Part shown: positions 54,946-58,017 of the stretch, piece by piece
How positions within the stretch are numbered: the first letter of the stretch is position 1
Layout: each line of letters starts with the position of its first letter
Assembly (NCBI GenBank): GCA_903929885.1
Contig: CAIYWI010000031.1
Location: forward strand, 1-64,000
DNA: 64,000 nucleotides
Direction: 5' to 3'
From: an uncultured Phycisphaerales bacterium
GTDB lineage: Bacteria > Planctomycetota > Phycisphaerae > Phycisphaerales > UBA1924
Position numbers and translations under genes: made by a program
The notes under the pieces: model-generated
Told to the model about the DNA's origin: nothing
Databases searched by the model: none
What the model saw: only the letters and a program-made list of their open reading frames with translations

Positions 54946-56601
54946 GTGCCCAGCAAGAAGCCAAGCAACAAGCCCGCCACGAAGACCTCCGACCCCGGCG
55001 ACGGCGTGCGCACCGTCTCCTTGATCTCCTTGGGATGTCCCAAGAACCTCGTGGATTCCGAGAAGATGCTGGGGCTCCTGGCCGAGTCGGGGCTGGCCCC
55101 CATCTCGCACGACCCCGAGGGCGAGGGCTTCGGCGGGGCCGACGCGGTGGTGGTCAACACCTGCGGCTTTCTCGAGGCCAGCAAGGACGAGTCGCTGGGC
55201 GTGATCAAGGAGGCGATTGCCGCCAAGGAACGGGGCGAGGTCAAGCGGGTGATCGTGGCGGGTTGCCTGGTGCAGCGTCACCGCGCGAAGATGCTTGAGT
55301 GGGCGCCCGGGATCGACGCGATGGTGGGCGTCTTCGACCGCGATCGCATCGTCGACGCCGTGCAGGGACCCGGCGGCGCTCGCAAGCGGCTGGACGAAGT
55401 GAGCGACAAGCCGGCGTACTGGATCGCCGCCAACGCGTTGTCGGCGGCGAAGGATCGCGGGATGAAGGTGACGGGCCTGACCGTCAACGGCAAGGACGGC
55501 AAGGGCATCGGCTACTTCGAGGACGACTCGGCCCGTCTGCGGCTCACGCCCCGCCACTACGGCTACCTGCGCGTCAGCGAAGGGTGCAACCAGAACTGCG
55601 CCTTTTGCACCATCCCGAGCATCCGGGGCAAGATGAGGAGCAAGCCGCTGGATCGCATCCAGCAGGAGGCCCGCGAGCTCCTGGCCGACGGGGCGCACGA
55701 ACTGCTCATCATCGGCCAGGACACCACCAGCTACGGCGACGACATCGGCTTTGGCTTGAAGGACGGGGGCGGACTTCCCGCGCTGCTCAACGGGCTGAGC
55801 GACACCATCCGCGACGCCACGGGGCATGGGTGGCTGCGACTGATGTACGCCTACCCGAGCAACTTCTCGAGCGAGATCGTCGACGCCTTCGCTGAACTGA
55901 CCGGGAAGGGCCACCTGCTCAAGTACCTCGACATCCCGCTCCAGCATGCGAGCGATCGCGTGCTCAAGGGCATGCGCCGCCACGTCACGCGTCGTCAGCA
56001 GGAGCAGTTGGTCACGACGCTCAGGGATCGCATCCCCGGCATGGCGATCCGAACGACGTTCATCAGCGGCTTCCCCGGCGAGACGGAAGCGGACCACCAA
56101 GAACTCCTCGAGTTCGTCGAGGAGATGCAGTTCGACGCCGTGGGCGTCTTCGAGTACTCGCACGAGCCGGGTACCGTGGCCGGCACGATGGAGGAAGACC
56201 CCACGCTCGCCGTCCCCGCCGAGGTCAAGAAGCGTCGCCGCGACGAGGTGATGGAACTGCAGCAACGCATCGCCTTCGAACAGGCGGCGTTCCTCGCCGA
56301 GCAGTTCGACGAGCACAAGCCCACATCGAGCGGGGTGCAGTTCGACGTCATCATCGACGAGGCGATGCAGACCAAGGGCCGCAAGACCAGCGGCGTGAGC
56401 GAAGGGGGCGGGCTCTACAAGGGCCGCACCTACTTCCAGGCCCCGCAGATCGACGCCGTCACGTACGTGCAATCGCCCGAGCGGCTGTCGCCCGGCGAAG
56501 TCGTGCGGTGCACCGTCACGGGCAGCGACGGCTACGACCTGATCGCCAAGACGGCCGCCGCGATCGAGAAGCGGGTGGGCCTTCGCGTGCTCCGCAAGTG
56601 A
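54946..56601 (+). CDS. rimO: ribosomal protein S12 methylthiotransferase RimO
   Basis: 551 aa against about 440 in E. coli. It adds a methylthio group to Asp88 of S12 (uS12) using two 4Fe-4S clusters. The N-terminal UPF0004 domain has VSLISLGCPKNLVDSEKMLG, VVNTCGF and VIVAGCLVQRH (three Cys). Radical SAM: RVSEGCNQNCAFCTIPSIRG (CxxxCxxC), then MYAYPSNF, LKYLDIPLQHASD and a C-terminal TRAM domain. Between the first two domains is an extra ~50-residue segment (residues ~145-195). The start GTG at 54946 follows the TACCAT box; a longer reading from upstream belongs to the pseudogene frame. Confidence 0.93.
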   Translation: MPSKKPSNKPATKTSDPGDGVRTVSLISLGCPKNLVDSEKMLGLLAESGLAPISHDPEGEGFGGADAVVVNTCGFLEASKDESLGVIKEAIAAKERGEVKRVIVAGCLVQRHRAKMLEWAPGIDAMVGVFDRDRIVDAVQGPGGARKRLDEVSDKPAYWIAANALSAAKDRGMKVTGLTVNGKDGKGIGYFEDDSARLRLTPRHYGYLRVSEGCNQNCAFCTIPSIRGKMRSKPLDRIQQEARELLADGAHELLIIGQDTTSYGDDIGFGLKDGGGLPALLNGLSDTIRDATGHGWLRLMYAYPSNFSSEIVDAFAELTGKGHLLKYLDIPLQHASDRVLKGMRRHVTRRQQEQLVTTLRDRIPGMAIRTTFISGFPGETEADHQELLEFVEEMQFDAVGVFEYSHEPGTVAGTMEEDPTLAVPAEVKKRRRDEVMELQQRIAFEQAAFLAEQFDEHKPTSSGVQFDVIIDEAMQTKGRKTSGVSEGGGLYKGRTYFQAPQIDAVTYVQSPERLSPGEVVRCTVTGSDGYDLIAKTAAAIEKRVGLRVLRK

Positions 56602-56631: not shown

Positions 56632-58017
56632 TCATTCGAGCGCCATGCCGACGCTGCTCACCATGCCCTGGCTCGACTCGTCGAGGGCGGCGACGTAGTT
56701 GAATACGTGCACGCGGGTGGGCTGCACGAGCTTCACGGCCGCGCACATGTTGCCGATGCTGCACCAGTGCGTGGGGTTCTGCTGCCACGCCATGCTGGCG
56801 ATGAGCTCGTCGGTCTTGCCGTTGGCGAGCAACTGGATCATCTCGCGATCGTGGTTGAACACGCCGTTGCGGAACTCCTGAACCTCGGGAGCGTCGCCGG
56901 AGACTTCGCGATCGTCGCCGAAGGCGCGACCGACGTGACTGAGGTCGGCCGACGACACGATCAACGTGCGTCCGGGCACCGAGGCCAGGGCGGATCGCAT
57001 CGCCGCGATGAACGCCTCGAAGGAGACGCCCAGGCCGTCGTAGCTCTCGCCGTTGTTGACCGTCGGATCGTGGATGAGCACGCCCATCACCGGCGGGAAG
57101 GCCCCCCGCTCGTCGGCCCCCAGGCAATGCTGGAGCCAGGGAATCTGCAGTTCGATGCTGTGCTCGCGCTCATGATCGAAGCGATGGGCGAAGACCCGCT
57201 CGCCCGCCTGAGGCCCGAGCGCCGAGCGGAAGGCGGCGATCAGATCCGTCGCGGCCTGACAGACGCCCAAGGGCGACTCGAAGCCCTTGTCGCACGCGCA
57301 AACGCCCGTCTCCTGGCCGAAGTGGTTGGTGCCCAGGATCAGGACGCGGTCGGGACGGGCGAGCCCGCGAAGGCGGCCCCAGACACCCGCGTAGTTCACC
57401 CAGCCTCGCTGATAATCGATGTGAGGGACGATGATGCCCTTGGGCAGCGACTCAAGCACCGGCGCGTTGGGATCCTTGAGCGCCTCGGCGATCCACTGAT
57501 CGAAGACCTCCCGCATCCGTCGAACGCCCATGCCGGTGCGATACTCGTCCGACATCTCGACCGGTGCGCTCCGCTCGGCCTCGGGCCGCTGCATCCGCAC
57601 CCAGTGCTCGGCCAGCGAGTCCGCGAAGGCCGCCGTCGACGCCGGGGGCAACACGGGCGCGCCGTCGAAATCGGCCCGCATCTTGGCCTCGATGGCCTCG
57701 AAGACCGGGCCGAAGAGAAGCCCCGCCTCGTCGAGTTGGCCGATCAGGAACTCGAGCGGCTCGCGCGTGAGGCCTCGCCCCACCGCCGCCACGATCTCGT
57801 CGACGGTCCGCTGGCCGTCGAGCATGGGCAACACCACCTGGAAGGCCATCGACGTGAAGACCGCCTTGTCGGAGATCTGCCTCGCGTCCGCCAGTCCGAG
57901 CGCCGTCTGCTCGCCGATCTGGGCCGGAAAGCCCCGAACCGGACGCAGCCGCGGACGCTGATGGTGCGACGCGGCGGGATTGAAGACCGAACGGGGCTGG
58001 CTGGGCATGTCGCTCAT
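56632..58017 (-). CDS. MEMO1-family protein (AmmeMemoRadiSam system protein B) with N-terminal extension
   Basis: 461 aa. The C-terminal ~270 residues match the MEMO fold: IIVPHIDYQRGWVNYAGVW, VLILGTNHFGQ, HRFDHEREHSIELQIPWLQH, TLIVSSADLSHVG, the last with the active-site-like His. The N-terminal ~170 residues are extra: AFQVVLPMLDGQRTVDEIVA...LIGQLDEAGLLFGP looks like a PqqD-type winged helix. The AMMECR1 and radical-SAM partners of the named system are not in the window. The start at 58017 is favoured by the TACACT box 9 nt upstream. Role unknown. Confidence 0.85.
   Translation of the reverse strand: MSDMPSQPRSVFNPAASHHQRPRLRPVRGFPAQIGEQTALGLADARQISDKAVFTSMAFQVVLPMLDGQRTVDEIVAAVGRGLTREPLEFLIGQLDEAGLLFGPVFEAIEAKMRADFDGAPVLPPASTAAFADSLAEHWVRMQRPEAERSAPVEMSDEYRTGMGVRRMREVFDQWIAEALKDPNAPVLESLPKGIIVPHIDYQRGWVNYAGVWGRLRGLARPDRVLILGTNHFGQETGVCACDKGFESPLGVCQAATDLIAAFRSALGPQAGERVFAHRFDHEREHSIELQIPWLQHCLGADERGAFPPVMGVLIHDPTVNNGESYDGLGVSFEAFIAAMRSALASVPGRTLIVSSADLSHVGRAFGDDREVSGDAPEVQEFRNGVFNHDREMIQLLANGKTDELIASMAWQQNPTHWCSIGNMCAAVKLVQPTRVHVFNYVAALDESSQGMVSSVGMALE

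Follow-up and report, generated by a model that had tools for sequence, protein, structure and literature searches.

MEMO proteins range from bacteria to humans, and the LigB/MEMO superfamily is said to have been treated by Burroughs et al. in 2019. The structure 8hi7, which we take to be TglHI, presumably represents an iron enzyme that acts on a peptide with the aid of an RRE-type partner. TglH itself is a DUF692 barrel and belongs to a RiPP cluster. TglHI thus displays the same sort of arrangement as that proposed below for a fused MEMO protein, from which TglH differs in its barrel and in its RiPP setting; indeed, 8hi7 is among the structural matches of the N-terminal domain described here (Z 3.3, VIA-align). 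Of the MEMO proteins, human MEMO1 is reported to bind Fe/Cu at H49, H81, and C244 and to have iron- and copper-binding roles, and its authors state that no dioxygenase activity was found on the substrates tried (PMC11081632). Fusions between an RRE and MEMO have likewise been recorded: one sentence of Bregman et al. (2025, mSystems, PMC12710340) lists Memo-like proteins (PF01875) among RRE fusions. Because of that listing the architecture is already known, and the protein described here contains the same two domains. The gene context, the active site, and the phylogeny of the fusion are worked out here.

The window, namely the whole 64,000-nucleotide stretch of DNA that was analyzed, derives from an uncultured Phycisphaerales bacterium whose genome assembly measures 3.56 Mb and is 94.6% complete. 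The fused gene runs on the minus strand from 58017 down to 56632, from an ATG to a stop codon with no internal stop. Its main features are as follows.

56632..58017, minus strand: coding sequence of the fused protein, 461 residues plus stop (open translation; family alignment of 43 rows)
57652..57960, minus strand: PqqD-like/RRE-type winged helix, residues ~20-122 (AlphaFold; Foldseek and VIA-align; PaaA/PqqD profile matches; hhalign to PF05402)
56635..57663, minus strand: MEMO domain, complete, residues ~119-461 (PF01875, TIGR04336, and MEMO1 7l5c)
57421..57423, minus strand: codon of H199, presumed counterpart of MEMO1 ligand H49
57322..57324, minus strand: codon of H232, presumed counterpart of MEMO1 ligand H81
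56761..56763, minus strand: codon of C419, presumed counterpart of MEMO1 ligand C244

The motifs LDGQRTVDEIVA and LIGQLDEAGLLFGP, which had been quoted in the earlier note, are present in the minus-strand translation. The plus-strand frame over 56632-58017 is also open and is the antisense of the fused gene; a chance or antisense origin for the reading frame was rejected, since 43 aligned rows show conservation of the minus-strand frame. A TTG codon located 60 bases upstream could serve as an alternative start, giving 481 residues, and the ATG form matches the N-terminal beginnings of the other members of the window's family. Relatives of the gene lie on four named contigs, two of them from Phycisphaerales MAGs, one labeled Planctomycetaceae, and one labeled Cyanobacteria. 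The last label, "Cyanobacteria bacterium" (L004), is probably wrong.

The C-terminal portion of the protein is a MEMO domain. It matches the Pfam Memo model PF01875 over residues 192-447 with E=2e-21 (76.8 bits versus a gathering cut-off of 27) and the NCBIfam model TIGR04336 above its cut-off (E=3.2e-19). The AlphaFold model of the full chain, with a mean pLDDT of 95.2 and a pTM of 0.91, superimposes onto MEMO1 (7l5c) with a Z of 28.4 and an rmsd of 3.0 for 277 aligned residues, encompassing model residues 120-461. A comparison with DesB yields a Z of 17.7, the LigB fold being common to both. Residues 4-295 of MEMO1 align from model residue 119-120 onwards, and the N-terminal extension is thus about 118 residues long rather than the 170 or so that had been allotted to it before. 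With this correction, the proposal of the earlier note that a MEMO protein is fused to a PqqD-like N-terminal domain is borne out by the PF01875 match, the N-domain profiles, and the predicted fold.

Judging from motifs and alignment, the His-His-Cys ligand set of the MEMO family is present as H199, H232, and C419, the pairing with H49, H81, and C244 of MEMO1 having been made by reading the aligned motifs. A histidine occurs at position 199 in 62 of 66 fused and 31/31 unfused rows, and at position 232 in 66/66 and 31/31 rows, respectively. Position 419 is a cysteine in 62 of the 66 fused rows and a serine in the other 4; among the unfused rows there are 26 cysteines and 5 gaps. Note that two contigs are counted twice in the 66 fused rows (L003/L022 and L004/L024). 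The 2-His-1-Glu iron triad of the class III extradiol dioxygenases is absent, for Cys 419 occupies the position where these enzymes have a glutamate. Further pocket residues are conserved in the fused rows, specifically D358 and H361 (66/66 each) and H282 and E285 (65/66 each), and this conservation looks catalytic. Asp 201 is found in 65/66 and Gly 205 in 62/66 fused rows, whereas a glycine and a serine occupy these positions in 31/31 unfused rows, which suggests that the fused MEMO domains have a different pocket. The genomes L036, L037, and L038, all of a single genus, retain the protein but have lost two of its three ligands (H199 has become alanine or serine, C419 serine), and the genus may represent a pseudoenzyme lineage. 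Six pocket positions were checked for deviations; besides this genus, two ligands differ in L092 and H282 differs in L090, and the partial row L088 is likewise exceptional.

These losses bear on whether the protein is an enzyme at all. It might instead serve as a metal-handling or scaffold protein, in keeping with the Fe/Cu roles of human MEMO1. The retention of the protein in one genus following the loss of two ligands is consistent with such a role, as is the presence of a gene for a CusF-like small protein (cluster c6) in 11/63 neighborhoods. So, too, is the behavior of MEMO1, which binds Fe/Cu and, according to PMC11081632, was inactive on the dioxygenase substrates tried. The conservation of D358, H361, H282, and E285 has a catalytic look, however, and a metal carrier would have no need of an RRE, such that we consider this explanation quite unlikely.

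The N-terminal region contains residues that are nearly or fully invariant in the 43-row alignment, namely P22, R25, D44, G68, D96, and L101. Predicted in isolation with AlphaFold (pLDDT 92.1), it is composed of strands 27-34, 37-44, and 52-55 and helices 57-61, 72-79, 85-97, and 104-119. In the model of the full chain, an arm at residues 11-20, which might fill the groove of the N-domain, has a pLDDT of 97. Structure prediction and a Foldseek search of this region pointed to a PqqD-like/RRE-type fold; the best rows were TruD and LynD, with E values of 0.004-0.010, and no row fell under 0.001. With VIA-align, the closest matches were the RRE of PbtF (Z 7.5, 76 aligned, rmsd 2.5), PKMT2 (Z 7.5, 83 aligned, rmsd 2.6), TigE (Z 7.4, 87 aligned, rmsd 3.5), and lasso B1 (Z 7.2, 78 aligned, rmsd 3.6), and additional RiPP or microcin matches included TbiB1 (6.5), LynD (6.2), MccB (6.2), TruD (5.7), and 5wgg (5.3). 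Judged by their titles, five of the ten best matches are RiPP or microcin enzymes, as are 29 of the best 50, with several rows being repeats of one protein. Winged helices of non-RiPP proteins tie with them (PKMT2 at 7.5, 2xdv at 7.1, and GdmN at 6.6), and every Z value is below 8. With such values and such ties the fold alone is not decisive, and it is the sequence profiles that tip the balance towards PqqD and the RREs.

A profile of the N-domain, when run against the PDB sequences, ranked PaaA (E=0.0058), PqqD (3g2b, E=0.0094), and PKMT2 (0.057) highest, with EF-hand proteins coming next at E values of 0.27 and above; a PDB search with the single sequence gave a weak result. The Pfam PqqD model was matched by 10 of 30 single N-domains at E<=1, the best at 0.0019, and the PKMT winged-helix model by 7 of the 30. 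The window protein by itself showed no PF05402 match in the Pfam search. Among the 43 full-length proteins, nine matched the TIGR03859 PqqD model and five a RiPP maturation model (E<=1). An hhalign comparison of the family profile with 15 PF05402 domains of the same phylum gave 94.5%. Finally, the N-domain profile found a PqqD-M50-HlyD protein on contig C60 of the window's own genome, which passes the PF05402 cut-off (32.3 bits versus 23.4) and thereby connects the N-domain of the fused MEMO with PqqD. Profile and predicted fold together support the assignment of the N-terminal region as a PqqD-like/RRE-type winged helix, and a domain unrelated to PqqD was rejected on the PDB profile matches, the Pfam matches, VIA-align, and hhalign. 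PqqD-like domains are employed elsewhere in the window's genome as well, which encodes two proteins of the PqqD-M50-HlyD type of ~730-740 residues (L219:6-2183 on C60 and L220:248-2467 on C40). The gene for each adjoins a second open reading frame that by eye resembles a membrane-fusion protein.

Fusion of an RRE fold to a metal center is most simply read as a means of recruiting a peptide or protein to that center. The N-domain would dock a segment of the substrate, and the His-His-Cys center, presumably occupied by Fe/Cu within the LigB-type fold, would then perform redox chemistry on it. We tentatively favor such a MEMO-type Fe/Cu enzyme with an RRE-like recruiting domain, at somewhat short of an even chance. 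Counted against recruitment are the Z values of below 8 with their ties to non-RiPP winged helices, the pattern of conservation in the predicted groove elements, which at 1.45 bits for strand 52-55 and 1.74 bits for helix 85-97 are no better conserved than the domain as a whole (mean 1.76 bits), and the fact that among the 25 most frequently matched of 126 neighboring families no RiPP enzyme family recurs beside the gene. The ligand losses in L036-L038 and L092 also weigh against it, and the reported inactivity of MEMO1 on the dioxygenase substrates tried (PMC11081632) speaks against a redox enzyme. The domain departs from PqqD and from the RREs of RiPP systems such as PbtF, lasso B1, LynD/TruD, and PaaA: it is fused to MEMO, its groove elements are not specially conserved, and no RiPP cluster was seen around it within the neighbor families just mentioned.

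Winged helices are used as structural or dimerizing parts in PKMT, MINA/NO66, and GdmN/NovN. Should the N-domain be of this kind, the MEMO domain would act on a small molecule and no peptide would be involved. PKMT2, 2xdv, and GdmN score as high as the RREs in the structural comparison, and the PKMT model is matched by nearly as many N-domains as that of PqqD (7 versus 10 of 30). The most conserved residues of the domain (P22, R25, D44, F117, G68, and F106) lie outside of the predicted groove elements, the pTM of the model suggests a fixed packing of the two domains, and a RiPP context was not seen in the 25 most frequently matched of the 126 neighbor families. Against this, PaaA and PqqD rank before PKMT2 in the family profile, and the N-domain profile also picks up a PF05402 protein encoded in the same genome. 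We regard a structural winged helix as a real possibility, albeit a doubtful one.

A search with the fused protein at E<=1e-5 found matches in 47 of 61 genomes, the window's own included, and in all 36 of the other genomes of its family the match starts in the N-domain and extends into MEMO, those in G011 and G034 being cut short. In a sample of 246 genomes, whose phylum was taken to be Planctomycetota from the named relatives, 111 matched at E<=0.001, many in the MEMO part only. By its profile alone, the N-domain was found in 74 of them at E<=1e-12, the cut chosen to define the fused genomes referred to below; weaker matches, with E values of ~1e-11 to 1e-5, are mostly open frames of ~700-860 residues. 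A search of plasmids with one fused relative as the query gave two records, both restricted to the MEMO part and annotated as amrB, and the viral contigs gave no match.

A tree of 78 rows is divided by one branch, with a support of 100/100, into 48 MEMO domains from fused and 30 from unfused proteins. For its construction, 22 of 100 rows were dropped (6 partial, duplicate, or odd, and 16 to thin the window's family), and L051, truncated where its contig ends, and L088, with a split frame, were both counted as fused. The fused proteins make up a branch of their own within the MEMO family, and a widespread one. Most simply, the two domains were fused once and have been inherited together since; the tree being unrooted, a single event is the simplest reading and not a proof. 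The fused protein shares with AmmeMemoRadiSam system protein B and the MEMO1 family (TIGR04336, PF01875) the MEMO domain and the positions of the metal ligands, and differs from them in its extra N-domain, in D201 and G205 in place of glycine and serine, and in its own branch. L188, L190, L191, L192, and L205 contain a different fusion, in which a single open frame of ~525-593 residues combines AMMECR1 with a MEMO of the unfused type.

The earlier note had counted MEMO as part of the AmmeMemoRadiSam set, whose other members are a radical-SAM gene and AMMECR1. In the window's own genome, 94.6% complete, there were no matches to the radical-SAM model TIGR04337, whereas the same search gave a signal in 9 of 14 control genomes and passed the cut-off in 4; AMMECR1 (PF01871) was likewise without a match there and gave a signal in 5 of the 14. 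Across the 246 genomes, TIGR04337 was found in 127 (E<=1e-20) and AMMECR1 in 128 (E<=1e-5). The 74 fused genomes include 49 with radical SAM (versus 78 of the 172 others), 48 with AMMECR1, 25 without radical SAM, and 21 with neither. The Fisher odds ratios, in which kinship is ignored, are 2.4 for radical SAM (p 0.003) and 2.1 for AMMECR1 (p 0.009), a weak positive co-occurrence across genomes. The claimed link to these genes is not supported, and none of 65 fused neighborhoods (1.14 Mb, tblastn E<=1e-10) contains radical SAM or AMMECR1. These neighborhoods consist of 60 stretches of at most ~9 kb on each side, the four named contigs, and the window, and in all 65 the N-domain and MEMO lie in one frame.

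By contrast, the same search found at least one of the two partners in 13 of the 31 loci (82 kb) with an unfused MEMO. Three radical-SAM and four AMMECR1 sequences served as queries; as all seven came from six of the unfused loci, these six count as linked by construction, and without them 7 of 25 loci are linked. The bounds of some unfused stretches were set after the location of the radical SAM gene was known. Radical SAM and AMMECR1 thus adjoin copies of MEMO that are unfused and fall in the other branch of the tree, and a linkage of the fused MEMO to the AmmeMemoRadiSam partners was rejected on the own genome, the 246-genome counts, and the neighborhoods. It is therefore very unlikely that the protein serves as component B of an ordinary AmmeMemoRadiSam system, with the N-domain supplying the radical-SAM enzyme with a peptide. 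The TIGR04336 match above cut-off and the weak co-occurrence with TIGR04337 are in line with such a role, but both partners are missing from the own genome and from 21 of the 74 fused genomes, the fused neighborhoods are unlinked, and the partners sit beside the unfused copies. A radical-SAM gene of another kind does lie next to the fused gene in the window.

54949..56601: rimO-like gene (UPF0004, radical SAM, TRAM), convergent with the MEMO gene and 30 bases from it

In a rough clustering, none of the other 62 neighborhoods contains a member of the cluster of this gene (c527), whose proximity is therefore treated as a coincidence.

Outside of the window's family, no common partner was seen in the gene neighborhoods. 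Among the 25 most frequently matched of the 126 families to which 115 neighbors there gave matches, none is of a RiPP or radical-SAM type; the remaining 101 have two or fewer members each, and open reading frames were called from 70 residues up. The 115 neighbors were aligned from 130 listed, the other 15 being doubtful or overlapping frames; the list itself covered loci from L085 on and genes of up to 800 residues. The rough caller split the MEMO gene in L088 and missed it in L089, L091, and L118, which for that reason do not appear in the neighbor lists. Two small proteins were seen near several fused genes. A conserved basic protein of ~104 residues (cluster c8, L077:10640-10957 and homologues) is encoded head-to-head with the fused gene in nine neighborhoods, and the CusF-like protein mentioned above (L071:1079-1549) scores 27.1 bits versus a cut-off of 27, its count of 11 referring to the 63 clustered neighborhoods.

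Of 34 genomes compared for the window's family, among them two named contigs of putative kinship, 20 encode a small membrane protein of ~110-140 residues, with a GYH motif and, by eye, two helices, 3' of the fused gene and on its strand. Locus L019 was set aside from this count, as its contig ends there.

L065:8399-8770, L066:7546-7914, L081:10149-10487, and others: small membrane protein with GYH motif

The loci searched with its profile contain some genomes more than once; each of the 35 matches stops 330-457 bp beyond the stop codon of MEMO. The histidine of the motif is invariant in 14/14 aligned members, none of the Pfam families matches more than two of these 14, and the gene is often followed by PilM. 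A whole-genome search found the protein in 21 of 61 genomes, in 19 beside MEMO and in two elsewhere, one of the latter remaining with the PilM cluster. It is a possible partner of the fused MEMO in this family, and not an obligatory one, as the window's genome contains no match to it.

Returning to the recruitment of a peptide or protein, the fused MEMO would work as a free-standing enzyme apart from the AmmeMemoRadiSam trio. A bolder form of this proposal, which we deem unlikely, is that the fused clade consists of housekeeping enzymes that modify a cellular protein or peptide through the RRE-type domain outside of RiPP pathways, with the small membrane protein as a dedicated partner in the window's family. 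The label "AmmeMemoRadiSam system protein B", which TIGR04336 confers on 43/43 family members, appears to be misleading for the fused branch. A fold of the peptide-gripping type, retained across a whole branch of the MEMO family, offers a concrete clue to the MEMO substrate, and the isolated N-domain could be used as bait. If the fused clade does indeed modify a peptide or protein, the long-orphan MEMO fold would gain a peptide substrate.
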